NCBI GenBank assembly: GCA_950295325.1
Contig: OX485808.1
Coordinates: 19,674,527 to 19,738,526, forward strand
Length of the DNA: 64,000 bases
Direction of reading: 5' to 3'
DNA from: Polytrichum commune
Taxonomy: Eukaryota > Streptophyta > Polytrichopsida > Polytrichales > Polytrichaceae
The position numbers and the translations under genes are program-made. The first letter of the stretch is position 1. Every line of letters begins with the position of its first letter. Positions 5,950 through 64,000 of the stretch are shown here, in pieces. The notes beneath the pieces are model-generated. The model worked only from the letters and a program-made list of their open reading frames with translations. It did not search any database and was not told the DNA's origin.

Positions 5950-6990
5950 TAACTTATGTAGAGGAGTCCGTCAAGGTTACCCACTAGTTCCTTACCTCTT
6001 TATTATTGTAGTTGCGCGGAAGCATTGAACGTTGCGGTTAAAAATGCGGTAAGGACTGGCCGTATTAGAGGCATTTCCCTTCCTCAATGCCGTATCCAAC
6101 AAACAATTAGCCAATATGCATACGATACTTCATAAACTGTGAGGGGTTGATTGCACCGGCTAGTTCTGACACCATCCGTTGGCATCTCCGGTTGTAATAG
6201 TGTGAAAAATGATGGGCCAATATCTATTTCTAAACAATCCCCAAATTCACGGCTGGAACCGGACGAAAAATTTGGTGTGATCATGGCATGAGAGTGGAAG
6301 AGGCTAGCATGGGGATTCTTTGAAATTCCGGGCTTGCTTCTGGCCTGGAGATCAACTGGCACAAAAGTGTGGCATACTGATGCGGCCGTGGCACTCAACT
6401 AGGTTGGGTGGAGAAATTTCAATCGAAATGGGTTGCCACCGAAGATTTGTTCACGCTTGTTGGCAAAAGACTCATTATGAAATAGGTGTTGATGTCATTC
6501 CTTTGGTATTTCATTGTTGTTTGAGTTAGTTTGAAGAAAGTCTTGAGGGAAATTAAGGCTCTGCTACGTAATTACCTTTGGTCAAGGTCTGAAAACATTG
6601 CAAGAGCACGGGTGTGTTGGGATGATTGTGTGATGTTGAAGAAAGCTGGAGGTTTTAGCCTTACTTCCCCAGAGGACGCGATGCAAACATTCATGAGTAA
6701 GTGGATCATTCAAGCACTTCTCCCTAGCCGACTGAATTTGCAAATCTTGTTGAGGTACTAGATTAAGCAACTCCAACCTTCTTATCATGGTCCATGGGGC
6801 CCTTCTTGACTATAGTAGACTTGAGTGGCAACAACCTCTTATGGATTTGCATAAAAACACTAGATGTTGCTTATGAGGATGTTCTTAAAGATTTTGACAA
6901 TGTTTGGTGTGTCAAAAGTCTTATTGGTACTCTTAGCAAGTTAGTGATTGATTGGGAAAATAGGCCCCGGATGGGCGCTATTTCTTAAGT
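5950..6990 (+). pseudogene. L1-type LINE reverse-transcriptase relic
   Basis: Plus-strand fragments line up in the order of an L1 ORF2 protein. First comes GVRQGYPLVPYLFIIVV at about 5963-6013, the RT G-x-R-Q-G-x-P-L-x-P motif. Next is QYAYDTS near 6109-6129, where the catalytic YADD has become YAYD. Then ASGLEINWHKSVAY near 6338-6379, and last the post-RT region 6531-6761 (LLRNYLW...W..C...KAGGF...KW). Frameshifts and stops separate the blocks. The catalytic Asp is lost. The element is 5'-truncated or rearranged and I see no target duplications. Confidence 0.7.
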
Positions 6991-44974: not shown

Positions 44975-45825
44975 CTCTCTAAATGCTCACAACCGTTGGT
45001 TTATTCTATTTTATCATGTGTGAGGGCCTGCATGAATAGAAATGCATTGAAATCGCATTTGGTTGAGGGCCCGCCGGTCACACTACACTTGAGGATCCGT
45101 GACCACACTACTACATGATTTTGGAGGTGTGTTGGGACGGACTTTGGACACTTTCTTTTGGGCTCTCATGATTTTATGGTCATGGTTCTTGGCTCACAAC
45201 CGTTGGTTTATTTTATTGTATCATGTGTGAGGACCCGCATGAATAGAAATTCATTGAAATAGCATTTGGTTGAGGGCCCGCCAGTCACACTACACTTGAG
45301 GATCCGTGGCCACTGGCCACACTACTACATGATTTTGGAGGTGTGTTGGGACGGCCTTTGGACACTTTCTTTTGGGCTCTCACAATTTCACGGTCGCAGT
45401 TCTTGGCTCACAACCGTTGGTTTATTCTATTGTATCATGTGTGAGGGCCTGCATGAATAAAAATTCATCGAAATAGCATTGGGTTGAGGGCTCGTCAATC
45501 ACACTACACTTGAGGATCCGTGACCACACTACATGATTTTGGAGGTGTGTTGGGACGGCCTTTGGACACTTTCCTTTTGGGCTCTCACGATTTCACGGTC
45601 GCGGTTCTTGGCTCACAACCGTTGGTTTATTCTATTGTATCATGTGTGAGGGCCCGCATGAATAAAAATTCATCGAAATAGCATTTGGTTGAGGGCTCGC
45701 GAGTCACACTACACTTGAGGATCCGTGACCACACTACATGATTTTGGAGGTGTGTTGGGACGGCCTTTGGACACTTTCTTTTGGGCTCTCACGATTTCAC
45801 GGTCACGGCTCTTGGCTCATGTGTG
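44975..45825. repeat. tandem array with a 204-214-bp unit, four copies
   Basis: 'ttggaggtgtgttgggacgg' recurs at 45121, 45335, 45539 and 45743 (spacing 214, 204, 204). Each unit also carries 'cacactacacttgaggatccgtg', 'ggctcacaaccgttggttta' and 'catgtgtgagggcc.gcatgaat'. The unit length is in the range of plant satellites, but the array is short. It could be internal to a larger transposon. Confidence 0.9.
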
Positions 45826-46105
45826 AAGTGGCCCTCCATACTCATCTGACAGGTGTGCTTTCTTTTCCAAGGGCAGGCATCCTGCAGGTAAAAAGGCAGG
45901 CCGGAGTTATGTATGTGAGCCTTCAAGCCCCAGAAGTTCATGTGGAGCTACCCACTCCATAAGCTCCCCTGACACACACACCATAAGCCAGAAAGGTATG
46001 CTATGGTGGCAATGATGGGACCACCAATGAACAGGGAGACCCGAACGCTGCCCCAAATTGTCTTATTAGTGTGGGTTGCCATTGGGAGTTTCGTGTTGTT
46101 GTGAT

Positions 46106-46500
46106 CTGCGTTCAAGATTGAAGCCCTCGTATGAGTTTCATTTTGAAGGGCTCCCAAATTTCAGCTCTTCAGTTGAAGAGTTGGTCCAAATCCGAGACGT
46201 CGATCTAAGAATATAGAAATGCAATACAACACTCACATTGAACTTGTGCATGGATTATATGGTACATGGTTCCAGTACAATGTGAAGAATCAAGAATTCA
46301 ACCATCTAACTCCACTTCTTGTAGTGACAATGCCCTACGCTTGTTGGTTCTTGTGGTGGGCAAATTTGATATTGAGGACTTCAAGTGACGTCTTCGTTTT
46401 CAATTTGGGGCTGCGTTTTGAAGGGATGTTTTGAGAGAGGTATATTATGAAGGGCCAAATCGCGTTTGAAGGGCATTGAAGACTTCAATCTTGAACACTG
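46106..46500 (-). mobile_element. hAT element, copy D (395-bp internal-deletion derivative)
   Basis: The ends CTGCGTTCAAGATTGAAG (two changes from the family end) and ...CTTGAACACTG are flanked by a perfect 8-bp target duplication, GTTGTGAT (46098-46105 and 46501-46508). Both arms match copy B, but the middle, including nearly all coding sequence, is deleted at about 46353. Orientation is the same as copy B. Confidence 0.9.
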
Positions 46501-46508
46501 GTTGTGAT

Positions 46509-47387
46509 GCTCCTTCACCGGGCCTTCAGCTAGCCTGATGAGTTCCATGTGGCCATTATTCTTTTTTTTGCACTTCCGGTAAAGGCTTTGTGCATGTAGG
46601 GTTGGGTCAATGCTAGCGCTCATGCTATTTGCGATGCCATCTTGTGAGCATGTGGGTTTAATTGTTTGCCTCCCGGGCAAGACCTAATATGCTCCCTTGT
46701 GCTCATGGATAAGGGGTTCTACTACCGGTGCTTTGGCTCCTTGTTGATCCCTCGGCTGATGATTTAGGGTTGCGGTCCACTTGAGCATGTGATGTGTTTG
46801 TTTGTAGTTTCTCCTCATTGTTTGCGCTTCTGTGTTGCTTAGCGTTGTCTAAGTTGTGTTCACCTCATCATTTGTTTGCGAGAGGGTGTTTGGATGTCAT
46901 CTTCTTGTTCTGGAGGTTCACCATGCAACGACCACTTCGTTCATGCTCTTACATGTTAATCGATGTTGTAATAAACATAGACCTTTGAAAAGAAAAAAAA
47001 ACTAAAAACCATGATTCCCAAAGTAGGGTCATATTTGCTAAGAGAAGAAAGCTTCTGAGATACAAGGGGTTCGCAACATTTTCTCCTTCAACTTACTTGA
47101 GTGGCACAAATCCCTAGCCCATACGTTGGTTAATGTGTATCACACTCTCCATCTTTTTCATTATTTATTTAGTTCGTTGAGACAAAAGATCAATAAACCA
47201 TCGTCAAGTAAATAAAGAACCAAAAAGACATGCCCCCTTCGAGAAGAAGCAAGGTCCCTCAAACGCAGTACACTGTCACATATAGAGAACCAAGTAACGA
47301 AAGACTACTCCCTAATCCACCAACCAAAGACAACCCCCAAACCACCACCAAGGACAAATCACAAACCACCAAAACAACAGTGCGACC
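46509..47387. other. intergenic, nothing recognised
   Basis: No domains or repeat ends. A Thr/Pro-rich 81-codon frame (47230-47475) straddles the left end of the next element and is unlikely to be real. Confidence 0.35.
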
Positions 47388-47389
47388 TA

Positions 47390-50265
47390 CACTAAAAAGG
47401 ATTTTTAGTGTTGATACACTAAATGTCAATAGCCCTATGAAAGTACGTAACATTAAATGTAAACTCAAATACTAAATATCAACTATGGTAAAATGTAGAA
47501 GTTACATGTTTGGAATTAATGTAAGTAAGGATACGAAAAAAAATTAACAATGATAAAAAAGAGAATTCTAGCATATTTTCTAGCATTCCAACCTTTAAAT
47601 ATTTCAGCATTCCAAAATGATAACGAATACAACTAGGAGGGTAAACACAATTTAACATTATAACATTCGATTAAAGTCAACATTCCATTTGAGCATGTGA
47701 ATTCCAACCATTCATATGAATCTAATAATATTAAATGGGATCCATTCAACATGTGAGAGCCATCTAGTATTCCAAGCACTTAACATATAAAATTTAACAT
47801 TCTAACATTTGAGCTTGAAAATACAAAACAACCATTTTGAGAATAATTCATAGCACATGAGAGCCATGTGTAATGAAAAAAATTGAATATTCAAAACATG
47901 GGTTTCACATTAATAAAAGAAGAGTATAATTTTCAAGTTGAAAGTGGGATAGGGTGCCCTTAAAAAATTTGCTAATACTTTCCAACAATCTCCTAAAGTT
48001 GTGGAAAAAATTGATGCACATTCAAAGCACTATCAATAGCCAAAAACATACTTGATCTACTCATAAGTTATTTAGTATATGGTAAATTATCACAATTTAC
48101 CTCCCGGTTGACATCTTCAACCAAATCTGTCGCCAATTGCAAAAATAACCTCTTACCCGGGTTGGTGAGTTTCCAACACCACTGACTCTCCGCTCAACGT
48201 GTGTTTTACCAAGTATTTGATACAATGAGGTTAGTTTTCTTGGCCTCCTATTTTCTATTCCATGTTCACAACAAAATAGATTTCATCAATTTTTTTTATT
48301 AGATTTTCATCAAATGTATCATTCGTAAAATCCCTATATAGCACACCTAAATGAAATAAAGTATGCATTTCAATTTCACGTTTTTTTTCCAGGGTTGTAT
48401 ATTATTTGCCCTTTTTGTAATAAAATAATATTATTATATGTAAACATAAATTGCTAGATTCAATTATTGAACAACTTTTCAATGGGAAAAACATTGTCTT
48501 TGGAATCATAAAAGATGATTGTATAGTGATGTGGAATTTAATAAAGATATCATGGCTAACTCGATGAAAAAATATGCTGAAAACTTAACTCCAAATTTCT
48601 TAAAACGCTCAAATACATCAAATAATATAGAATATAACCACTGTATTCATTTTTAACATTTATGTGCACAATATGCTATTACTTTCATCCCCTTAATCAA
48701 CTTTGCTACAAGAAATTATAGAAGATTCAAATTCTTGTTTATCTTCGTTGTAAAATTAGTCTTGTTGCGCCCACCAATGAGAGACATGCATGAAATTTGC
48801 ACTTTGTCCTCAAAAATGCTCTAAAAAAGTAGTAATTGTGCGATTGTAGAGACTACACTGACCATGTATTGATTCGTATTTTACCATCCATGTAATTGTC
48901 CGATTCTTTGTGACAATGGTGGAGTTTTGTTGGAGCTGGCAGGGAGGAGTAGCGACAATAAGATTGGTTGTCATGGCTACAAAAATGACGAGAATAAAAT
49001 GGTAAGAAAAAAATAAATTGGTGGAGTATAAACCCTTTGGGGAAAATCGTCCAAACTTGATTTCGGAGCAGAGTTGCGACAATGAGTGAAACTAAGATTA
49101 TATATACGATAAGGACCGAAAATTGCAGATGCGTAGGTCTTGGCCAAAAGTAACTGTAGTTCACAGAGGAATATTTGCATGACAACAACGATATTCTTAT
49201 GTTGAGAAGTCACATTTTTCTTGGATGTAAAATATTTGTGCTAGAGATCTCAATTTTTTAAATTTTTTTTGTTACGGAAAGCTCATTCACATACCTCTGA
49301 AGTAGTTGGAAGTCAGGTGAACAATGTTTGCTTCTTTCGCACTTCCTTGCAGTAATGGCAATGTACTCGAAATTTGTTTTTATCAATTCTTCACCCTTCA
49401 AGATGAATTTTAGAACGATTTATTGATTTTATTGTGTGTGCGTTGCAGAGTACAATCCGCAAGTATGCAAGAAGGTGCTTCAATGAGGCAGGAGTAGTCA
49501 AACTCAGACATGGCAAGACGCAAAGTAGTGGAGTTACAGCAATGGCAGTTTGGCAATTGCTAGGGGAGGCTAGACTGGTGTTCACATGTATAGGTCGTGT
49601 TCCAGCAATCTTCAGGCAAGGGCTGCGATCGCAATCACGGAGTGAAAGCGAGCAGTGCGATCGGGGGGAGGACTTGGCAAGTGATTTTTTTCTGTCACTG
49701 GAGTCATCACAGATTCGTAGCTCAACAACATGTATCATCCGGTGTCGCAATCTTGGCACTCATGCCGCAATCACAGAGCGAGAGGATCAAGATGCGTTTG
49801 GGGGGAGGAAAATCTCCAGTTCTCAATTTTCAAGTCGAACCAAAGTTGCGGGGGAGGAAAACCTCCAGGTTGCAGTCATGGGTCCGACAGATTGAATTTC
49901 AGGATCGCAAGGCAACCGGCTTCAAGGTTGGCGCAAGCTATCAGCGAGAGTTCAAAAGTTGCTTCGAGAAGTTGAGAAGCTGCTCCGACAAGAAGGCGAG
50001 AAGCTGTAAGCAAGCAGGAAGGTGGGGTGATGGGAAAACATCAATCCTAAAATGTCGTCATCTTTATCAGATGAGAGATCAATGAGCAAGAAGGTAGGGC
50101 GCTTTCCCTAAAATCGCAAGTCCAGTGAATTCCATGGTGGTAGTAGGGAAGGTGGTAGCACATTTATGTCTAACACTAATTACCAAGGAATTGAAAATTA
50201 GTGTTGAGCAAGGTAGGGTGGTAACAATATTAACTATAATCAAACACTAAATATCCTTTTTAGTG
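47390..50265. mobile_element. candidate 2.9-kb TIR element with CACTAAA ends and TA target duplication
   Basis: The left end CACTAAAAAGGATTTTTAGT at 47390 and the right end (complement CACTAAAAAGGATATTTAGT) ending at 50265 match over about 23 bp with one mismatch. TA sits on both outer sides (47388-47389, 50266-50267). The termini resemble those of the 338-bp MITE at 51339-51676, so the two may be related. Inside, overlapping frames at 49434-50085 (plus) and 48810-49213 (minus) show no domains that I recognise. The two ends may instead belong to separate MITEs. Confidence 0.45.
49434..50085 (+). other. overlapping ORFs of unknown nature inside the 2.9-kb element
   Basis: Two overlapping plus-strand frames, 49434-49895 (153 codons) and 49597-50085 (162 codons), are the longest in the candidate element. 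They are Arg/Lys/Ser-rich, lack recognisable motifs, and sit in a patch more GC-rich than its surroundings. They could be a captured or decayed gene fragment. I do not assign a function. Confidence 0.25.
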
Positions 50266-50651
50266 TAGTGACGGTAGAGCTTCCAATTCCACATAAAATC
50301 CTGGCTCGGATATCTTTTCGCTAAGAACGAGCACCTTACGAAGCATAATTGCCAGCCATGGATCACACCAGAACATAACGGCAAATCAACCATAGATCCC
50401 AACACGCATCCGATGATCGGCATATGATCCTCACCTTTATGCTCGATAATGCCCTCGGACCGAGGCAATATCTATCACATAATCTATACGTTTTCACGTC
50501 AACATAACACCGCTCTAGCCGATGCTGCTCTCCGAATTCCAAATCACTGGAAATTTGGTTTGAAAATTGAACAATGTTCTAAGGTAGAGGGTGCTTAAAC
50601 CAACACTTTAAGCTATTGCACATACATATGACTATGTGGTTGATATATAAA

Positions 50652-51998
50652 GGGGATTGCTATTTCCACACCTTTTTTGGCTATATTCACACCTTTTTGC
50701 CGGTTCGGTTGCCGTGTCACTGAGGCGCTATATATGAGATTCTTCATGGTGCATCCGGACCGTTGATCCACCAAGGCCCATCCAAGGGCCTCAATGATCC
50801 TAGGTGGCGGTGGGGTGGGGGGCGGGGGTGGTGCTTGCCATCAAGGCGGGGTGGGCCGTGGGCCTCATGTCTTTTTTGGGGAGGCCGGATTTAGGGTAGT
50901 GTCGGGCCTAGTGGCTAGGCGGGCCCAGTGGCTAGGCCTACTTATTATATAACTAGTTGGTTACCCTTACTCTACTTACTAAATAACTAGTTGGTTACCC
51001 TTACTCTACTTACTAAATGACCAGTTGGTTACCCTTACTCTACTTATGACATGATATGAAACAAGTAGGTTAGTACGAGATGGTTAGCAAATCCAAATCA
51101 AAATTTAGGAGGTCATATGAATATCTTAGTCATTATCAAAGTGAAGATTATGGTGTCAATAATGATCATATAGGTGTCCATACCTAACTTCAAGACTTGC
51201 ACATATACCACTTAAATATACATGTCCAATTAAGAAGAGTGACCATAAGTAGAGTAAGGCTAACCAACTAGTTATTTAGTAAGTAGAGTAAGGCTAACCA
51301 ACTAGTCATTTAGTAAGTAGAGTAAGGGTAACCAACTACACTAAATAGATAGATTAGTGTTGGAAACACTAATAGTCCACCAAAACGCTAAATGTAAATT
51401 GTCTCTATAGTGTTAGAACACTAAATGTCAACTCTAACACTATTTGTACCAAGTAATAACTTTAAATATTTACATGAGCGCATTTAGTGTTAGATGATAT
51501 TTTGTAAATCTTGGAATGAAGAATTGAAGGAAGAAGAATATGAGAACCTCGTAAAAGGTATAATTTGTTCAAACCCTATTCAAACACTAATTGTAATATC
51601 AGTTGAAAATTAATATTTTAGGTAGCTATTGCATCTAACACTAATCTTCATCTAGCACTAATCTACCTATTTAGTGTAGTCATTTAGTAAGTAGAGTAAG
51701 GGTAACCAACTAGTTATATAATAAGTAGGCCTAGCCACTAGGCCCGACACTACCCTAAATCCGGCCTCCCCAAAAAAGACATGAGGCCCACGGCCCCACC
51801 CCGCCTTGATGGCAAGCACCACCCCTGCCCCCCACCCCACCGCCACCTAGGATCATTGAGGCCCTTGGATGGGCCTTGGTGGATCAACGGTCCGGATGCA
51901 CCATGAAGAATCTCATATATAGCGCCTCAGTGACACGGCAACCGAACCGGCAAAAAGGTGTGAATCTAGCCAAAAAAGGTGTGGAAATAGCAATCCCC
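50652..51998. mobile_element. 1.35-kb element with long terminal inverted repeats
   Basis: The left arm starting GGGGATTGCTATTTCCACAC is the near-perfect inverse of the right arm ending at 51998; the inverted homology spans about 300 bp plus 34-bp internal repeats. An 8-bp target duplication, TATATAAA, flanks it (50644-50651 and 51999-52006), a hAT-type duplication length. Three direct copies of a 34-bp unit (containing 'ctagttggttacccttactc') lie at 50944-51048. Three inverted copies lie at 51246-51338 and another at about 51679-51722. No transposase is encoded. The right arm is split by the MITE at 51339-51676. Confidence 0.88.
51339..51676. mobile_element. 338-bp MITE nested in the larger TIR element
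   Basis: Its ends CACTAAATAGATAGATTAGT and (complement) CACTAAATAGGTAGATTAGT are flanked by TA on both sides. Removing it restores 'accaactagtcatttagtaag', which is exactly the sequence of the neighbouring intact 34-bp repeat (51290-51316). This demonstrates insertion with a TA duplication. Confidence 0.85.
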
Positions 51999-52006
51999 TA
52001 TATAAA

Positions 52007-53031
52007 ATATATATTCATATTAGCCTTTGGGCTAAACATAGGTATCAAGAAAGAAAAAATAAATTTAGTCTCAATTGAATATTTGATGAATATTCAAAGT
52101 CAAAACTACTAGCTTCCTTATACCAATCCATAGGCCCCGTGTATGGCAACCTCACATATGATGAGGACCCCCACCTTCATTGCCTAGAACCAACACAACA
52201 TAGTTGGGTACTAGACCCAAACTACATCAAAGCCCAAGTAGTAATGGTATGCAAAGCCACACGGGCTACCTCCATGATCCCTCCCAGTTCGCTTGCAAAA
52301 CCATCACCTTGCATCCCGGGAACCGACCCCCTTGCATCCCAGAAATGACCCTTTTGTGCTTTGTGGGCCTACCTCCTTGGCATTGTGAATAGAATGACTA
52401 GAATAGGCATTGACAAGCCACCTTAATCCCACCTTGAACCAACCCGAGATAGAGTGGAGCCCGTTACATACCCTACATGAAGGTCATGGAGGCCGCTATG
52501 AGGTGGCACCACTAATGGCACCTAAAACCGTCACTCCGTGGGCCCAGACACTCCTACACCGCTGGGTACGGTTCAAGGTTGTAGAGTGTTGGCAATTGGG
52601 AGGCATTTATAGGTGTTGGTTTTGGATGGGGTGTTGGTTTTAGCACCCTCTACCTTATATCTTTCGGGTGATGCCAGACAACCCTAATCCTGTAGGCCCT
52701 GATCCTAAACCCGCTGGACCCACAACCCTAATCACAAACTTCACACTTTCCGAGCCCCCATTGTCGATTGGCACATCACAACGAGTTCTTCGTTCAGTCT
52801 TGCAACATCCTTGGGGTTTAGGGGGGTTGCAGTGGCATTGTTCCTACAATTCTTATAACTCGCAAGATGTCTCTTACAATTGCAAGCACACGTTGTAGTT
52901 TCTATGAACGCCGTTTGTCCAACGGTTGAAAACTAGATCGAGTTGTAACGCCCTCCATACTGTCATTGTTATGTGAAGGTGCGTTGTCATCCTGAGTTTG
53001 TAAGCATTATCAGAATTCTTCCTGCATCATG
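52007..53031. other. intergenic, nothing recognised
   Basis: Short ORFs only. The stretch ends at the 28S rRNA-derived segment. Confidence 0.4.
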
Positions 53032-53067
<36 letters not shown>

Positions 53068-53092
53068 TGTTCCCTATTGGTGGGTGAACAAA
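53032..53092 (-). rRNA. about 60-bp fragment of 26S/28S rRNA
   Basis: The minus strand from 53092 reads TTGTTCACCCACCAATAGGG, then GAACATGAGCTGGGTTTAGA and CCGTCGTGAGACAGGTTAGT. This is the highly conserved domain V segment of the large-subunit rRNA just 3' of the peptidyl-transferase ring, with one change (CACGTT to CATGTT, a CpG-type transition). Similarity stops abruptly at both ends. It sits immediately 3' of the R2-class retrotransposon and in the same sense orientation. Too short to be a gene. Identification is from memory of the conserved rRNA sequence. Confidence 0.88.
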
Positions 53093-53651
53093 GTCGGGGT
53101 CCGGGGGGTGGTCGTACTAGGGGTAGGTATCTTAGTTATGGTCCCTTTTGCCGTCTCCAGTCCCGGATCCGCACTACTGCCCTTTAGTGCGAGGGGGGGT
53201 TCTCGTCTCTCGGGCCCCCTTAGATGGCGTACCGGGGCCTCGTTAGGATATTTCCTAGCGAGTTATTCCTAGGGTCACTTTTTTGCTAGGTTTTAGGTCC
53301 GAAAATTTGGCCTAAGGGCGGAAATAGGTTGTCCTTTTATTTATGTAAAAATTGGAAAATTCCTACATCTCCCGGTAGGTGGTTTTTGCCATCCGCGGGT
53401 CGTGACGGTCCTCACCTCCGCCGAGACGGGTCTTTAAACCCCAACCTAGTACAAATTTTAAGAAATAATCTAGGTCCGGAGTCGGATTTGAGAACATGAG
53501 TTGTTCTAGGCCTAGTTATATGGGTGGTTGGACGAATGGCCTTATTGCCTATTCGCCCAACCTCCCGAACTCTTAGAATAAGCGCTACTCTAAGCCGTGA
53601 AAGACATGCCTTTTATGGCTACTTTTATTTTAAGATATTTGGATTCATGGC

Positions 53652-56600
53652 TTAGGCGTCCCGCGCCCATCTAACTGCATTGCTAAGTACTCTATAATAA
53701 TATCTATCTATTTGTATCATGTTCGGTAGTTGAGGTCGTTCCGCCATTTCTTCTCGCGGCTGCACCTCCCACTTTTCGCGTTGGACTAGGTTCTCGCAAT
53801 ACTTAAAGTATTCTCGCCGCAACCACCTGCATTTCGGGACCCACGTTCCCGCTTCCTCATTCGGGAAATTCTGACGCCGGTTGTACAGTTGGTCACGAAC
53901 TATCCATAGTTTGTGATTATGGTTGCCGATGGCCTGTATGATTTGATGGATCACCCAGGATGTCTGCGCCTTGGGTTGAATATCGCGGAGTATCTGCTTA
54001 ATCGATGCCGGGATAGTCCCCATCACACCCACTACCATCGCGCGAAATCTGACGTCGTTATCCGGGAATCGACGGCATAAGACGTCGACCAAGTCATTAT
54101 ACTTGTCCGATTTCTGTCGTTTCGCTATCGCTATCGCATTGTCCATTACGACGGACGCCTCCCATATTTTAATTTGATGGTTTCGATAAATCATCTGCCC
54201 ATCGTCGCCTCACCTCGCCGGGGGCTGATACTGAAAAATCAAGTCTGGGCGGCGACTCGCTATCTGGCCATCATTTAAGATGTCTAGGAATATCAAGGCG
54301 TTGTCCGCCGGCACGCCCCACGTATTCTCCGCCATCCATATCTGAAAAGAATCAAGTCACCCTAACTTGTCATTTTCCGCGCGCAGTTTTACCCAGCAGT
54401 AAAGCTCGCAAACGACTTTGTCATGTCGTTTCTTCTTTATTGCTTCGAAAAGTGGATGTTTGCATCGGCAGAATAAGTGTTTTACCGTTTTTTTTGCTTG
54501 TTCCTGGCAGTTGTTGTAATGGGTCTCGTCTCGGCTCGTCCAAGTAGTGACTACCGATTTTACTGGCAGTACGTTAAAAACCACGGCAATCATAATTTTG
54601 TATTCCGGTATACTCAGGCAAGAAGTCTGAATCCATTTTCGGCTTTCCGCCGCGTGGGCCCCGTCGTGCGCAAACTATTTTGAGCAATCTTTTCTACGAT
54701 CTCTAATCCGTCCCGGTGTCTGACTGCTTCTTTTGTATACTCATTTAGCTCCAACTTGTCTTTATCGAGCCTCGTTTGCGCATTTGGGCCTAGCCCATCG
54801 CTGAATAGGCCTATTATTTTTACCCGTTCTAGTCCTTCTAGGTCGCCGCTGCGAATGTCCACCTTAAACGGCCCGCTCGCCATTATCCGCACTCCGAGGG
54901 TTTGGCACGCGTGGTAAAAAAAGACGATATAGGTGCGTCCTTTACCTTTACCTCGCGTGCCAATCTTTCGCCTCGCCTTATGATCCGTTCGCGTTGGCTC
55001 CCAGTACGCCAAACCCTTCGTTTTCGTGCTTACGTCTCTTACCGGGTTGCCGTACATTAGGTCCCAGTCCATAAAAATCCTACCTTGCGGGGCCCGCGGG
55101 ATCCCGGCTGCGATTCGCGTTTCCTCCACCATATGCTTAAACAAAGTTCGGACTTGAGGGTCCAAATTGTTTAAGAATGCATATGCCGTGTTCACGAGCA
55201 TTGAGTCGTGAATGGTCCGAAAATTCGGTAATCTCAGCCCGAGATGGTCCGTATTCATCTCGAGCTGTCGCTTGCTTCCTCGACGCGATGGCCACCCTAG
55301 TATTCTTCTCGCCGCCCCGTGTTGTATCCTGGTGGCTTCATCCAGGATATAATTCGGCGGCGGGGTCATTGGACACAATATTTCTATCAATGGCTGCGCC
55401 GCCTGTGATAGAAAGTCCAATTTTCCCGCGTAGTGTAACTTTTGTATTCTCGGTGTGTCCAATTATACTACAATCGCCTTAAACTTAGCGAGGGCACTCT
55501 TACCTTCGTGTGCTTCCCGCCTTTCCTCGTTCGGGCCGCGAGGTAGTGACAGTTTCTGATTTGTCTTTGCTGAGGCGGAGACTTTGTGTTTCCCTAAGTA
55601 TTTGAAGGCTTCATAGCCTTCCAGTTGCGGAATGGCCTCTCCGCATAGGTTGAAGTCCGCGAGTTCGACATCCTCGTCTTTACCTCCCATAAATTCTCGG
55701 CCCCAGTAAACGCATTTGTGGATGCCGAATCGCATTCATGCCCATTCTGTGAACTCGCTCTGAATCGTAGCCATTTTGCGGATATCCTCCTCTGTGTCGG
55801 CGATGCGTACCTCATCGTCCATGTAATCCATGCCCTTCACTTCGATTCCTGCGATCGAATAGCCGCGGCATTCCTACGCAATCCACTTCGCGACCGTCTC
55901 TTTGACGACCGCGAAGATTAACGGGCTTATCGTGTTACCTTGGGCCACGCCTCGAGTTATCGTAATAAGTTCCGAGGCCTCTCCGTTAACTATCAGCCTT
56001 ACCTGATTACCGAACGTCGTTTCCTTCCACATCCGGCGCAACTTCGGGCAAATAGGTACGATGTCGATTGTTTTTACAATTAGTCCAAGGGGTAAGGACG
56101 TGAAAGCGCCCTTGAAATCGGTAAACAGGTAATATAATGGTTTTTTCCGGTGTCGGCTATCTTTCAAAACCGCCGTTAATTTGAGGTTCGCATCCCGGCA
56201 GCCTGCTACTCCAGGATTCACCCCATCTGAAAGGTGAATGGCGTGTGTGAATACGCCCTCCTTATTGTCTCCCTCATCGTTTCATACGCCACGAAAGTGA
56301 TGTATTTGCTCAGAATCTTAAAGAAAATCGGTAAAAAAGTTACCGGCCTCAGATTCGGGGCCTGAGTGTTGGGCGCCCCCGGCTTGGGTATGTAGGACAC
56401 GAACTCCAATTTGTACGCCGGATATATTAAACCCAGCTTGGTCTGGACTGAGAATGTATGAATTAGCCACATTATCAGTGACATCTTATCGCACTATCTC
56501 AGGGTGCGATACGTAATCTGATCGTATCCGGGACCTCTATCACCATCCCCCTCGCGCAGGATGCACCATAGTCGTCTGACGACTAGACCATTTTCGTCAT

Positions 56601-56700
56601 TCTCAAGCGGCTCGATGTGGAATGGGGTCCGCGGTGCCACCTCGTACTGTCATAACGCCTCCAGGTAAGCGTCGCCTCGTGGGAACGGGGCTACTTGGTC
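53652..56700 (-). pseudogene. RT, zinc-knuckle and restriction-like endonuclease polyprotein of the R2-class element
   Basis: Blocks in minus-strand order: GPGYDQITYRTL (RT motif 0 region, near 56530); PNLRPVTFLPIFFKILSKYI (56484 frame); YYLFTDFKGAFTSLP (motif A, catalytic Asp); TRGVAQGNTISPLIF (motif B); GMDYMDDEVRIADT near 55832-55795 (motif C, catalytic DD); FGIHKCVYWG and YEAFKYLG (motifs D/E); a thumb region (55462-54614); C...TVKHLFCRCKHP with downstream RHDKVV near 54500 (zinc knuckle); WMAENTWGVP and RRPDLIFQYQPP (endonuclease P-D); IKIWEASVVMDNA with KRQKSDKYNDL (endonuclease E...K...KY). Frame changes occur near 56218 and 54600, and at least five in-frame stops are present, e.g. TAG 55874, TGA just before MRFGIHKC, TAA before LDTPRI. 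Catalytic residues survive, so decay is moderate. Confidence 0.8.
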
Positions 56701-56705
56701 CGCTG

Positions 56706-57400
56706 TTACGACCTCGCCGGTGAAGCTGGGGCGGGCAAATTCATACAATTCTGCCGTTGTGGCTTCAACGTTGGCCCGACTCGCCCCTCCCTCGTACATC
56801 CATCTATGAAACTTGTGCACCGACCCGATATAGCGTCTGTTGAGCGCCGCCTTACCTTCGCGTCGAAGTCCATTCGCGGGGCGTTCTTAGTCGCGTGGTT
56901 CCTCCGCGTGTACGCCCCGCATTGAGGTAGACGGCCAATGTTTGACCATCCCGAAGATCCGTGTTGCCGCAAGGTTAAGCCCCCACCTCACTACGATATC
57001 AATCCGTTCCCCCTTGATTGCATCACGTTTTCGTTCCGCTTTTACGAGTTGTTTAAGGCCATACTTGAATATGGCCTTACTAATGCCCCTAAACCGTTTC
57101 CGAGTCTTAGGCTCGAAGTTCTTGACCATTGCGGCTGGTCGGAACCGCAAGTCTTCGATTGCCTCATTTCCCCTTAATATCATCGCCATTTTTCATTTTG
57201 AAATCGGCGATGATCGTATTGTCATTTGGCATTTCCCCCGCCACCGGTTTGGTGGTCCATTTCATTGCCCGCCCGATTTGACTGTGTGTGGCCCGCCATT
57301 CTCGAGCCTTCGGCGCCCAGTCGCCTTCGCGGAGGTCGTGTCGTGCTACCTCCGCCGGGTCCATTTCAAATCATACCTGCATCCCACGTCCATTTGATTA
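56706..57400 (-). pseudogene. N-terminal region of the R2-class element, unassigned
   Basis: Minus-strand frames 57364-57164, 57189-56887 and 56972-56706 give basic, protein-like segments in three phases (e.g. FEPKTRKRFRGISKAIFKYG). R2 elements have zinc-finger and Myb DNA-binding motifs here, but I cannot recognise one with confidence. Confidence 0.4.
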
Positions 57401-57624
57401 ACAGTTTCCACCCCTTTATTTTGACTTAACCTGTATCTAGGTTAGTCCTAAGTGTACTCTCTCTCCCCCACCTACTCCTAGGCTAAGGTATCCATTCAGT
57501 CTCGTTGCGACTTCCCGGAAGAATGCGGCATCGGTAACTTTCCCCCGGTAACTTTTCTTTCGGTAAATCCCCTTCTCGGTAACTTTTGCGTGGTAATTAT
57601 CCTCTATTGTTTCCCCCTTAAGAT

Positions 57625-58640
57625 GGTCGTCACTTGGATGCGTCGGAAGTGTACAGGAAGTCTCATCAAGAATGTGCTCTTTTTGCTGAATTCAAATCGC
57701 AGTTTTGCATTAACCTTATACACATGACTTGCACATGTAATGAGTTGACATCACCTTCCATTATGAACAGATTTTTGCATCGAGTTTACACATGGAGTTT
57801 GTGTGCGATTTGCTTACACTGATTGTCAGCTCACCTTATGTTGACGTTTCTGGAGCTAGAGGTGGGGTTTTTTTTGAGGCTAGGGTTTGCTCCCTGATCT
57901 TTAAACTTTAAACAAATACATGTTGGCTTCTGATGACTGCATTGCTCAAGTGTTGTCAGAATCTTTCCCGAGTGAAGAATTCAAGATGTTCTTCACTTGG
58001 ATGCTTTCCCGTGGTGTACATCAATTCTCATCAAGAATATGCTCTTTTTGCTCACTTCAGATTTGTACTTTTGCATTAACTTTAAGGTATGCGGTGTTAT
58101 TTAGTTCAATGTTTCGTGTTCTCCAATTTCCAGCGATCAGATTCACATAACGAGACTTGTCACGCATTAGCAAATCTACAATGAAGCGCCAGCAAAAATC
58201 GGATTTAAATTCCCATACCTAGATTTAGTTATGGTTATCAAAAGTGCATGTTCATAAGTCATGCCAATTGTGTTGACTATTGAGTTTGGAATAGTTAATC
58301 TAATTTGAAGACATTATAGACCGATCTCTTGTAAACATGCATCTTTTATGGTATTTGCTCTTTGATCTTCACCAATCTAATATAGGTGTTTGAGTAAGAA
58401 AAGTAACTGAATAACACCCGCATACCTTATACACATGATGCAGCCACTCTGATCAGATCGTTGCATTTCGTGTGCAACTTGTTTCACATTGATCCTTAGC
58501 TGAACTTGTGGTAGGGAATGTTGAAGTTTGTGGAGCTTGAGGGGGGGTTTTCTCGGAGGCTAAGGTTTACCCCCGATATAAGCTCCAGACAGATAAATGT
58601 TGGCTTCTGATGACGGCATTGCTCAAGTGTTGCTATGCGG
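57625..58640. repeat. local direct duplication, second copy interrupted by a MITE
   Basis: Unit 1 (about 57630-57970) and unit 2 (about 57992-58635) share 'cacttggatgc', 'tctcatcaagaat.tgctctttttgct', 'ttttgcattaac', 'tatacacatga', a 'gaggctagggtttgc'-like block and 'atgttggcttctgatga.tgcattgctcaagtgttg'. Unit 2 is longer because of the 342-bp MITE at 58085-58426. Origin unknown; no coding frame runs through both units. Confidence 0.75.
58085..58426. mobile_element. Tourist-like (Harbinger-type) MITE, defining copy
   Basis: Ends AGGTATGCGGTGTTATTTAG and ...GAATAACACCCGCATACC, with TTA on both sides (58082-58084, 58427-58429). The uninterrupted site 'taaccttatacacatga' is preserved in the neighbouring duplicate at about 57709-57727, so both the ends and the TTA duplication are supported. 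This copy anchors the family seen at 7229, 12466, 15391 and 43771. Confidence 0.85.
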
Positions 58641-59366
58641 ACAGATACGGGTCAGATATTTTATGGAGTCGTCTCTGCTTAACAATATTCCATAAATATT
58701 TGGAAGGAGAAACTTATTGGATTTCAATAGGACTAGAGATAAGATTGCACAAGCAAGTTACACATATACAAAGGCATATGAACAATGTTTGGAGTGAGAA
58801 AGTTTCATCTGCCCTTTGCCTTGCTCTTTATTGCTCATGGTCACCTCGGTTGCTACAAACAATATGGGATAGCTCCGTTCCCACTACGGCCAAGCCTTGT
58901 AGGCTATTACAACCTTATTACTTCTAGTATTACATTTTTATGACTACGAGCAACCTAATGCTCCACCTTCAACAAAATTGTCATAGAGAAAGAGGATTAC
59001 ACACATATAGTCTATTAAACACAAGTAAAATTCTACCATCCCTCCCATTTGGCGAGAGGGACTTATTGCATATGAGCATACCACTCATCCATCCAACATA
59101 AAAACTTGACCGCCTATGAAATGAAACTGTTTTTTTAAAGCCTAGGATGCCAAAAGGCTTATGAGACTTGAAGTACATCAAGATGGTGTCAAAAAGGTTA
59201 ATTTCCTAGAGTGATGGAGTGCACTAGCCTTAAGATAGATACTAGTATCAGTCATAGTAACCTATGATAGTGGCGAGCCGAGATCAAGATATCTTTTCCA
59301 ACTCACACCATACAAATTAACCAAGGCACATAACATGTGTTCCTTAGTTATAACACCAAGGTATTG
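58641..59366. other. intergenic; partial MITE-like fragment
   Basis: 'gagagggacttattgcatatgagc...catccatccaacataaaa' near 59050-59103 is a left-end fragment of the family at 37980 and 59368. A 105-codon frame (58610-58927) lacks recognisable motifs. Confidence 0.4.
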
Positions 59367-59367
59367 G

Positions 59368-59606
59368 AGGCAAGAGGGAATTATCGCATATGAGCGTTTC
59401 TCTCATCCATCCAACATAAAAAACTTGCCCTCATAGGTTTGTGGGTGATCCATCTCAAACAACTTGTAGTAGACTTAACTTAGGGTCTTTAATGGTAAGA
59501 AAATAAATTTTAATAAAGAAGTAACCCTCAAGATGCATACTATTTTAGGACTTTTATGTTGGATGACTGAGAGGTACGCTCATAAGCAATAATCTCCTCT
59601 CGCCCT
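59368..59606. repeat. MITE-like inverted-repeat element, family 'GAGAGGGAATTAT', copy 2
   Basis: Left end GCAAGAGGGAATTATCGCAT with 'catccatccaacataaaa'. Right end 'ttttatgttggatgactgag...' followed by 'aataatctcctctcgcc', the inverted partner. The length is about the same as copy 1 at 37980-38215. Confidence 0.5.
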
Positions 59607-60218
59607 CCCATCTCACGAGGCACCCTTCCTCTCCTTATAAGGGCACACTTCCATGAGCCAACCGTTCCAAAAAAGCAAAATATAGACTCCACCAATGTCA
59701 ACGATAGTTTAACATTGACCACTGTCTCCAAGCATTTTGTTGGTCGAGCACTTCTAAGTGGAGTAAGGGGGCCTACATGTGAGAGAGTATTTTTGCCTTG
59801 TTGTCAAACATGGAAGTTCAAATGTGACCATCATTGCATGACCCATTCTGTATGTTGCATATTAAGTGGATTTCTCTAAACCTTATATCTTGAGATGTAA
59901 GGCAAATAAAACTAAATCCAAAAATTATGAAAACAAGTTTGGGCTAGGTCTGAAGAATAAGAATAAGCACCATGACATAATTTGGTGTTTAGTAATACAA
60001 CAATCTTGGATCCACACCAACAAGTTTATGTAAATCAAATATTTCCTACTCAAATGAGAATCGATTTTCAAGTCCAAAATAGAGAGGCAATCAAGTCCCC
60101 CTCCTCGAGCTTCAACTTCCCCCAATAATTGTGCAAACCACCAATTCTCCTCCAAGAAAACTATACACACTTTGGTGTCAAGGAGGTCCAATTATTTGTC
60201 ATCGAGTGGCGGGCTCGC

Positions 60219-60266
<48 letters not shown>

Positions 60267-61145
60267 GACTGCTTGCTTAGGTCTTTTATTGTTCTCATTG
60301 ACATTGGGTTCAACTAAGCTCTAGTAATTTCCAATAATATGACTGTTCTAAGGAGAAAGCAGAGATCTACCAAATTTCTTGACTCTTTGAACTGACAGGT
60401 TGAAGTGTTTCCAAACACCCCAAGAAAAAATGTTCTATCCAAGTTGAGAGGAGGTTTTATGATACTCTACTTGGAGCACAACTTGGATGATTTTGAATTT
60501 ATGTTTGTAGATTTATAACATAAGGCACTCCCAAGTTTTTGCAAGTAATTTCTAAAAATGCATGTACGTTACACACTGTAGCTGAAACAATTTGAAGTTA
60601 CATCTACAACTGGCAGCAACAGGCTTGATTGAACACAAATGATAAACTCAAAGATGTCCACTGCTGAATTATTCCTTTGGTTGATCTTATCTCAGCTATA
60701 AAATCCAGAGAATCAACAGGTATGTTTAGTCTAGAAAGAGCTACGCACTCCTGCAGATGGAAGTGGTCCTTTTTCACAAGGTACTCATTTGAAAACAGGT
60801 TGCACACACAAAGTAGACAGAAACACATTCAGAAGTTGCGTCTGCAATATGGGGTTTTCTGCTGGGCTTAATTCGCCTCCATGTATCTGAAGCGACAGCC
60901 AAGGATGTCTCGGGTGCCAATACGATATCTCATTCATTGTAGTACTTAATCATCAAAACTAAACAGTGCAATAAGTGATATGACAAGAATGCACACACCT
61001 GGGATCTATAAGGGCAATGTTACAATGATTGCAACCATTTCTGACAAATGAATTGCAAGCTGAGACACATCTCCTGAACAAGTAATAGACACACAAAGGA
61101 AAAAAATACATGCTTCTCATTGTAGATCCTTCATGGGAGCTACTA
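59607..61145. other. intergenic; GCTC/CT microsatellite, otherwise nothing recognised
   Basis: A (GCTC)n(TC)n tract lies at about 60213-60265. The part from about 60590 to 61145 may include the 3' UTR of the membrane-protein gene; I see no canonical AATAAA close to its stop. Confidence 0.4.
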
Positions 61146-62620
61146 CTAATTCAACTTGGTCTTTGCAGAGCTTTTCACTGGCTTTGCTATGGGTCTTGTA
61201 AGACGGTTCACCTTTGCTAAATCAAACTTGATTGACAACACAGACAAGATCAATGCTACAAACAGCATTGGCGAGGCATGAATACCTTCCCTACCTGCTT
61301 TGCTAGGGTCTGTAGCCAAAAGGGTTTCCTTCACAAGGCCCCATGAGATTAGGAGAGTTCCAAACATGCTCATTCTTCCTGATTTAAAAAGACTTATAAA
61401 AGCACCTGCCACCGCAAAGTAACTTCCCGCCAATACCTGCAATTACAGAGTCCCAGTTAATACAAGCTACACAACCAGGTCATTTTCCAAGTCAAACATT
61501 TAGAGCTCTCTCATACGTTTGAGTTCTAACAAACTACCAAAAATTTTCTTCACTGAGGCATACATTTCAGCCCAAGGTACTGTACTCGCCAGTCCTGTAC
61601 ACATGTGGCATGCTTTCCTCCAGTTCCATGTGAGGTATGTGGGCCTTGTGTGGTCAATCTTCTTAACTGAACACCTATATTTGAGTAGTGTATGGCAAAG
61701 TTTGTAGTTGAGAATGGACACCAAAAAGGCATGTATTACAATGAGACTGGACTATGTGCTCACACTAATTAACCATTCTAGGTTCTATTGATATACACAA
61801 TTGAGAAAGTCTATGTGTTCAAATAAAGAGAGAATCTTCACTTTAGCCTCCTATAACTTTTGCATCTCACCTCTGATTTTGAAACTTAAGACAACAATCT
61901 GCATGGTTCGCAATTGCTAACCGGATGAAACAATGTCTGATCCGATCCAATGGCCACAAGTATATTAGTTGGAAGTGCCCACAATAGGGCCACATACCTT
62001 ATTAACGTGAATGTAATTGAAGGTGCATTTACACACAACTACTCATTGTGGTTGTGGTTGTAGTTTGGGCCCACATACAAACCACAACTACAAATACTTT
62101 TGTTTACACACAACAATTTTTGTAGTTGAAGGGTGGATTTGACCTCAATAATTGTCCCTCCTATTGGTGCAATATGTGGAGTGGAGACAAACACTTTCTG
62201 GATTCTGATGGAACGTTTGTCTAAGAGTAATTTCCTCCTACAAATACTCTCCTGTGCTTTGGCCCTGAAGTTCTCTCTTGGTGCCACATAGGAACTACAA
62301 ACAAAATAGAACCCAAGATAGAAAACTACAACCACTGCAACTACTCCCAACTACACCTTGACTCATAATTAGGTAAGGTAGAGTAGTTGTGGATGTGATG
62401 GTTGTCATCAATGCACCTTTCTTTCCTCCAAAACAGAACCGAACAAAGTAAATTACAACCTCAACCAGTGAAATGGTGGCTGTGTGTAAACACACCTTGA
62501 GGTATACAACTTCCATGGACTTGTGACCTGATTCACCAAGGACAGAGAACTATAGGATAGACTGTTTATTACCTCAAGACGTGGCAGTAGATTTGGATCA
62601 GGGGTTCCCATGTCCGTCAT
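61146..62620 (-). CDS. small multi-pass membrane protein, unknown function
   Basis: Two minus-strand exons, 62620-62573 and 61436-61146, joined by a GT-AG intron of 1136 bp in phase 0, give 112 residues: MTDMGTPDPNLLPRLE, then VLAGSYFAVAGAFISLF... Three hydrophobic stretches, about 17-33, 42-60 and 78-97 (SPMLFVALILSVLSIKF), suggest membrane spans. The tail is Lys/Ser-rich (KPVKSSAKTKLN). The splice acceptor TTGCAG and donor GAG/GTAATA are both good. I do not recognise the family with certainty; it resembles small conserved plant membrane proteins of unknown role. The start is tentative: the frame stays open upstream to 62824, and an ATG three codons later is also possible. Confidence 0.65.
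62021..62497. mobile_element. 477-bp TIR element in the intron of the membrane-protein gene
   Basis: The left end AGGTGCATTTACACACA pairs with the right end (complement AGGTGTGTTTACACACA). TGA flanks both sides (62018-62020, 62498-62500), a 3-bp target duplication. The interior is rich in 'GTTGTGGTTGTAGTT' words near the ends and encodes nothing. The superfamily is unresolved. Confidence 0.7.
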
Positions 62621-62624
62621 GTTG

Positions 62625-64000
62625 TAATCTTGTAAGAGTGTCTGCCAAACTTCTAAAGGCTGACGTCCGTTGAGGGCTTGGTTCAAACATGCTCCTGGAA
62701 AAAGAATTGCCTTCACAGCAACGTTGGGCACCAACTGGCTAGCCACAAGTTGCACTACTGTTATCTCCAACGGATTTGTGCAAATTCCACTTCGACATGG
62801 AAAGCTGATCCACAAAACCCTCAAATTCAGATTTCAGCTTGACATCAGGCATAATCAGGTAAGTAAACCCTAGCAAATTTAAGGTGGTGCAAAATCCTAC
62901 CTTCACTCTAGCCAAGACAACAACAGTAAAACAGATTTGAACCCTTGTCCACCTGGTGTGAGGCAACACCGAACTGGATGGGACAACCTCTACAGGTATC
63001 TACCCTAGATGCCTAGCGGGACCTGAGGATGAAGCATTTTCTAAAATGTGCTACAAAGTTGCATTTCCAACGGTTTCTTGAGAACTATTACAAATGAGAA
63101 GCTCTGAGGCACCATCAAAGGATCGCATCCATGGGATTTAAAATATGATAATACTTTTGATCCTCCTATAATGAATCTGAAAATGAAAAATCTGAAAATA
63201 CATCGTAAATACAACTCTCATTGTTTTAATGAGAAACTTGATACACTTGGAACTACAGATTGATGGGATGTGCAAGCATAGTATGATCTTCAAGTGTTCA
63301 AATTGTCAAAATATCTCTTAAGATGTGAGCACTTCATGCAGTATAGAGGATAATCATGATAGAGCATTTTTAGTCGATAGGCAATTCCATTAGCTACATC
63401 TAGGAAAACAAAATGGAAAACAAACTAATTTCTTTAACAAGATCCAAGGGAAGTCACGGTCAAGAAAAGTCCTCGTAGGCAATTAGGGGATATAGAGCCA
63501 TGAACGCTGGAAACTGTACCAACTGATTCTTTTCTTTTGAAATTTCGGAGCAAACAGCTAGTAGAGCGAAAACCACTCTTTCTAGCCTTAGCTCGTATAC
63601 AGATTTATAGTAGTGAATTTAATGACCTCCTTGTGAAGATGAGACTGCTACAAATATGTTACTTTTTGATTGTCTTACATTGTCATCCTAGACGATAAGC
63701 ATTCATTCTTGCAGAACTTATGTCATTCTGCTTCTGAAACTAGATACACTCATTTTCTCAAACCCCACGGGCATTTAAATACAATAATCGCTGCTGACGA
63801 CGTCATAGTGAACCGACAGGCTAGAATTAACGGAGTATAGGGCAACATTCGTTTAGTTTTAAAACTGGATAATTTCTTATCCTAAAACACCAAAGGTCCT
63901 TAAATGCAACAATCGAGGTTCTCAATTACGTAGAATGTGTATTATACAGAAATCGAAATAACCTAATCGAAAAACCGCAATAACCAGTTCACTCAAAAAC
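62625..64000. other. upstream of the membrane-protein gene; nothing further recognised
   Basis: The first 100-200 bp probably hold its 5' UTR, with a possible upstream leader exon (an acceptor-like TTTTTCCAG lies at about 62695-62703 on the minus strand). The rest to the window end shows short ORFs only. Confidence 0.35.

Follow-up and report, generated by a model that had tools for sequence, protein, structure and literature searches.

In this genome, copies of a LINE family carry pieces of 28S rRNA at their 3' ends (tails) and at their 5' ends (heads), and the family probably targets, or in the past targeted, the position GTGTTGGA/TTGTTCACCC of 28S genes, where its insertion would generate a long target duplication. 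Residence in rDNA is an inference; no copy inside rDNA was seen. The heads and tails, their common start, 28S from upstream of that start in two heads, one 90-bp host duplication and broken LINE reading frames were all directly observed, and the 28S mark is a real feature in several diverged family members. A junction with one fixed position of the rRNA gene is present, seen only outside rDNA. In the 28S numbering used here, +1 is the first T past the slash in GTGTTGGA/TTGTTCACCC. The window is the whole 64,000-nucleotide stretch of DNA analysed, and it contains one copy of the family. The host is a land plant, since NAM-domain (NAC) genes are present (28 matches over the cut-off, in about 14 genes) and none was found in 14 control genomes. 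The small number of NAC genes and the seven large contigs suggest, by inference only, a bryophyte.

The window copy and the 3' ends of the family

An earlier note, made from the sequence alone, had claimed that about 60 bp of 28S lie in sense orientation directly 3' of a retrotransposon, and this held. The last base of the element is 53092 (...CCCCGACT), followed at 53091 by 28S in sense relative to the reverse transcriptase (RT) frames (Table 1). Comparison with 28S-derived stretches of the same genome gave up to 98% identity over 60 nt (range 88-98%); identity to the reference 28S stretch is 96.7%, and relative to the host 28S copies the tail has a G to A change at +24. Its best Rfam match is the eukaryotic LSU model (25.3 bits, E 8.4e-4 when 1 kb was scanned), which is below the gathering score of 50, and at gathering scores the region 45000-64000 had no match. 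The window LINE is 94% identical over its 5' 1.9 kb to a sister locus, L041. No target duplication above shuffles was found for this 5'-truncated copy, which in the best explanation is a dead member of its family.

Table 1. Features of the LINE copy and its surroundings, in window coordinates
Feature	Position	Strand	Remarks
Host flank past 28S tail	52500..53031	.	28S does not run on
28S rRNA tail	53032..53091	-	+1..+60 from GTGTTGGA/TTGTTC, sense, joined to element 3' end
Element 3' end	53092..53450	-	found at 14 places by DNA search with L004, at 67-100% identity
LINE body, 5' UTR truncated	53092..57619 (5' limit approximate)	-	nucleotide identity 74% to L004
ORF remnant, ~1,200 codons	53652..57364	-	stops and frameshifts; start estimated from translation
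Restriction-like-endonuclease-like motif	54084..54254	-	RRPDLIF ... IKIWE ... K..KY
Zinc-knuckle position	54462..54518	-	C-X2-C-X9-H-X4-C in L005 and L004; window copy without first Cys
Reverse transcriptase and following region	55034..56257	-	PF00078 over cut-off in ORF 55874-56221; DFKGAF, QGNTISP, YMDDE by eye

The working set comprises 26 loci, the window's included, and copy counts are lower bounds. When the genome was searched at the DNA level for the 3' end of L004, 14 places were found, the window among them, and a 15th 3' end (L036, later merged into L039) came from a separate search with the 28S stretch. An RT protein search with L005 as query, in which 127 of 658 candidates were scored, gave one group at about 30-100% identity, followed by matches at 24-32% that we take to be L1; at least five more RT fragments from this search are outside the set. 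Two of the loci, L027 and L043, are neighbours on C2 and possibly parts of one copy, and the C50 copy, a duplicate of L048 in the compared stretch (L022:L023), was left out of the counts. For 3' ends, L038 was excluded as degenerate, and 10 further loci have no 3' end in the stretch examined.

Inspection of the 3' junctions of other copies, which the earlier note had proposed as a check, was mostly favourable. At five of the 15 readable 3' ends, 28S starts at +1 or +2 after the element end and continues for 21-60 nt before unrelated flanks. The tails reach +60 in the window, about +40 in L039, +31 in L004, +28 in L008 and +22 in L029, five different end bases in 28S. Another four 3' ends (L027, L033, L005 and L024) have just 2-6 nt of 28S, possibly by chance, and six have none (L025, L026, L028, L030, L031 and L032), L025 also being without the last 11 nt of the element. 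Because the same element/28S joint recurs in four other loci with other tail lengths, the joint in the window is not due to chance, and the refuting option of a separate later insertion is ruled out. All tails end at or before +60 and so stay within the span covered by the heads, which extend to +73; an origin of the tails from concatemers is therefore also possible.

28S heads and target-site duplications

Nine of the 26 loci start with the same 28S stretch, which reaches up to +73. The head covers +1..+73 in L004 and L005, +26..+73 in L024, +21..+73 in L040, +4..+50 in L029, +1..+57 in L038 and +1 to about +53 in L048. Two heads also contain 28S from upstream of +1: that of L008, which reaches +57, has 9 nt (AGTGTTGGA), and that of L037, an old head reaching +55 at 83% identity, has 10 nt (AAGTGTTGGA; 11/12 if two more nucleotides are counted). 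Six further 28S-like bases with one mismatch in the 5' flank of L004 may be chance. 28S is present at both ends of three of the five tailed loci, L004, L008 and L029. The remaining 17 of the 26 loci are 5'-truncated, diverged or unresolved at the 5' end. The heads, the upstream 28S in two of them and the 90-bp duplication described below go beyond what the earlier note had noticed.

The heads that were compared are better conserved than the element sequence next to them. Among six of the nine (L004, L005, L008, L029, L038 and L048), +4..+50 is 89-100% identical, and between L004 and L008 the head is identical at 47 of 47 positions, compared with 69% for the adjoining 5' UTR and 72% for the last 350 nt. 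With the close pairs excluded (L004:L005, at 97% and 97%, and L008:L029, at 89% and 85%), the next 150 nt after the heads are 42-79% alike and the last 350 nt, compared for L004, L005, L008 and L029 only, 71-74% alike. The family's own sequence has thus diverged by about 30%, while the compared 28S pieces remain 89-100% alike. It is likely that the head is renewed from rDNA, which is simpler than constraint on every head base, although the latter also fits.

A host duplication of 90 bp (83/90) flanks L029, starting no more than a base or two from the end of its 28S tail, with a score of 145 versus 21 for the best of 100 shuffles. On the 5' side the order is duplication copy, 37 nt of telomere-like filler, then 28S from +4. 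The filler itself, between host duplication and head (sense strand 190-226), is a telomere-like repeat, AAACCTAAACCC.... The L008 copy has a partial host duplication (score 37 versus 25), and the other five of the seven copies tested, L004, L005, L024, L025 and L038, have none above shuffles. The long duplication at the off-target site of L029 is consistent with the head being the duplicate left by insertion in a donor 28S gene.

Pairing between the head and the 5' UTR is stronger than in at least 495 of 500 shuffles for four of the seven loci tested (L004, L005, L008 and L040, the L040 stretch including 20 nt of host flank) and does not exceed shuffles to that degree in L029, L038 and L048. 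Pair counts show no covariation, and the pairing remains a model prediction only. An Rfam search of the 5' end of five loci, at E up to 5, found no ribozyme. An HDV-like 5' ribozyme was considered, since by eye +1..+6 could pair with GAACAA in L004, L005 and L024; there is no Rfam match, and no ribozyme is claimed because the pairing partner of +1..+6 differs in other subfamilies. The 5' UTR also contains a conserved GTTCGAGGCC, at about 5980-5995 (minus) in L004 and at the same site in L008, L024, L029 and L040, which we take to resemble a polymerase III box B (no box A is shown). Young copies (L024, L005 and L004) have repeated 5' UTR segments of roughly 100-150 nt.

The protein and its relation to known LINEs

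The RT of the family is that of a LINE, as judged by PF00078 matches (2.3e-14 in L025 and 1.1e-7 in the window) and by profile matches in the PDB. The RT profile of the copies matches 8c8j ('RNA-directed DNA polymerase') at 2.6e-12 and LINE-1 ORF2p at 4.1e-12; the matches to R2 proteins, at 1.1e-9 to 5.6e-5, are slightly weaker than that to LINE-1. In order, the ORF pieces comprise about 270 residues in which no cysteine was seen by eye in L004, the RT, C-X2-C-X9-H-X4-C, and about 70 residues further on RRPD...IEIWE...K..KY. Such a domain order is that of RLE-type LINEs (R2, NeSL, CRE, Utopia). The RRPD-type motif is what we take to be a restriction-like endonuclease, by motif only and without a database match, and RPD is retained in nine of the 14 loci that have sequence at this position, all of which are broken copies. 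PDB searches gave one irrelevant match (E 0.39) with the C-terminal profile, irrelevant matches only with the C-terminal part of L005, and no match with the endonuclease-like piece; an AlphaFold model of the window's C-terminal part (pLDDT 33) gave no support for an endonuclease fold. A zf-RVT match is weak and below the cut-off, the N-terminal pieces of L004 and L025 have no Pfam match, to an APE domain or otherwise, and none of the 26 loci has a single open frame over the RT and C-terminal part.

How does this family compare with the LINEs already known from RNA genes? According to its surveyors R2 has never been found outside animals (PMC5035012), and the statement in the earlier note that rDNA-specific LINEs are known from animals only agrees with the R2 literature (PMC5035012, PMC12203849). 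Like R2, the family combines an RT with a C-terminal zinc knuckle and endonuclease-like motif (by eye), no APE found, and an apparent 28S target. Unlike R2, it lives in a plant, its off-target copies have 28S at their starts and ends and, the residues before the RT of L004 being devoid of cysteine, no N-terminal zinc finger was seen by eye; the junctions at GTGTTGGA/TTGTTCACCC represent what we take to be a site other than the canonical R2 site. R2 5' junctions may themselves contain duplicated 28S, and in the earwig all junctions have 22 bp from downstream of the site (PMC3774820). The target duplication of R9 is exceptionally long (title cited in PMC12203849); in the R9 of bdelloid rotifers it is reportedly 126 bp. 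Beside this very long 28S duplication, the family described here has 90 bp off-target in one of seven copies, a partial duplication in another, and heads to +50..+73. The host of R9 is an animal, unlike ours, and the R9 site was not compared, so that the same site is not excluded.

Other RLE-type LINEs likewise target RNA genes, among them the NeSL-group 28S elements LIN9, LIN24 and LIN26_SM of planarians (PMC4640811), and Utopia, an RLE element in U2 genes of Amoebozoa, SAR and Opisthokonta, hence also outside animals (PMC4640811); the relevant sections of that paper include no land-plant member. The only LINEs named for land plants in a 2022 review are L1 and RTE (PMC9033089). The family resembles plant L1 and RTE in RT homology and in its weak zf-RVT match, and differs from them in that no APE was found, its 3' ends are without poly(A) or (GTT)n, and 28S is attached. 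No plant rDNA LINE, and no mention of the present site sequence, was found in print in the part of the open-licence literature covered by title and abstract. As far as that search reaches, a plant LINE of the rDNA-targeting kind is probably new, its residence in rDNA being inferred.

Target-primed reverse transcription, the coexistence of parasite and rDNA, and rDNA-directed gene insertion are all studied with rDNA-specific LINEs as the standard model. If the present reading is true, plants have a counterpart that differs in its site and its DNA-binding parts; LINE parasitism of rDNA would then have arisen in, or reached, plants, and there would be a new site-specific enzyme to study. Both ends of the RNA intermediate can be read from the off-target copies, unlike from copies inside rDNA.

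Origin of the 28S sequence

What could have placed the same stretch of 28S at both ends of a LINE? In the explanation considered most likely, the home copy, which is inferred, would be located between GTGTTGGA and TTGTTCACCC of 28S, in what we take to be the peptidyl-transferase region, A-loop. The first-strand nick would be made at GTGTTGGA/TTGTTCACCC, with the second strand nicked about 50-90 bp further downstream, and these staggered nicks would produce a direct duplication of 28S +1..+50/+73 preceding the element. The element would be co-read from the rRNA transcript, and its RNA would start at or slightly before the duplication and end past the element 3' end, in downstream 28S. Target-primed reverse transcription, the known mechanism of LINEs, would then generate, elsewhere in the genome, copies with a 28S start and a variable 28S end. 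The rDNA residence, the co-transcription, the nick positions and the RNA processing near +1 are all inferred. In a bolder reading, which is no more than possible, this is a 28S-parasitic LINE lineage of land plants, independent of R2 and still in the rDNA arrays of this species, with insertion in the peptidyl-transferase centre, a 50-90 bp duplication, and the duplicated 28S paired with a near-complement in the 5' UTR as a 5' RNA structure.

The main rival is a LINE without rDNA specificity that captured the 28S as a 5' module, the tails being read-through into the head of the next tandem or concatemer unit; 28S-headed SINEs exist and offer a comparison. In favour of this rival, heads are present in several diverged subfamilies, the tails (to +60) are never longer than the longest heads (to +73), and the head and 5' UTR pairing exceeds shuffles in four of seven loci. 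However, two heads contain 28S from upstream of +1, heads and tails have a common 28S start base, the heads remain 28S-like despite the family's divergence, and one off-target site has a long duplication, all of which make a captured module unlikely. Less likely still is that element-bearing pieces of rDNA were spread by duplication at the DNA level, without insertion of a 28S-bearing RNA. Although 28S fragments are common in the genome and some are within other repeats, the five tails have five different 28S end bases, none of the 11 loci with 28S has a longer rDNA stretch attached to the element, and the host duplication of L029 starts at its tail end. A chance origin of the 28S at 53032-53091, or its later and separate insertion next to the LINE, is all but excluded by the identical joint in four other loci and by the absence of control matches to a 29-nt 28S pattern. 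The earlier note had left undecided whether the window copy moved out of rDNA with read-through rRNA or is located in an rDNA fragment; a formerly 28S-resident LINE is favoured over a passive rDNA fragment or later insertion because of the tails, the heads in nine of 26 loci, the upstream 28S in two and the 90-bp duplication. Its claim that the family targets, or once targeted, this 28S position is therefore supported, with no interrupted 28S unit seen.

The downstream half of the target (first 29 nt, up to 3 mismatches) is present at 22 places, nine of them in the LINE family, and the control pattern had no match in the genome. For the upstream half (27 nt, up to 3 mismatches) there are 29 places; all were inspected, and none of these readable, dispersed 28S fragments has the element at the site. 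The assembly has gaps and no rDNA-like array could be read in it, only close pairs on C3, and functional rDNA is taken to be unreadable in the assembly because there are fragments without an array. At four places the upstream half is intact and the downstream half is not; these were considered as interrupted targets and rejected, being degenerate or having an unrelated insert off the site.

The dispersed 28S fragments include repeats of their own. One, of at least 650 bp with about 317 bp of 28S (-84..+233), is represented by L018-L021 and L051-L055, nine copies that are 94-99% alike, non-28S flanks included. A second dispersed family (L006, L007, L009-L012, L015 and L049) consists of scrambled, partly tandem 28S pieces. 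L013, L014 and L016 are 99.4-99.7% alike over at least 650 bp, with 28S from about -90 on.
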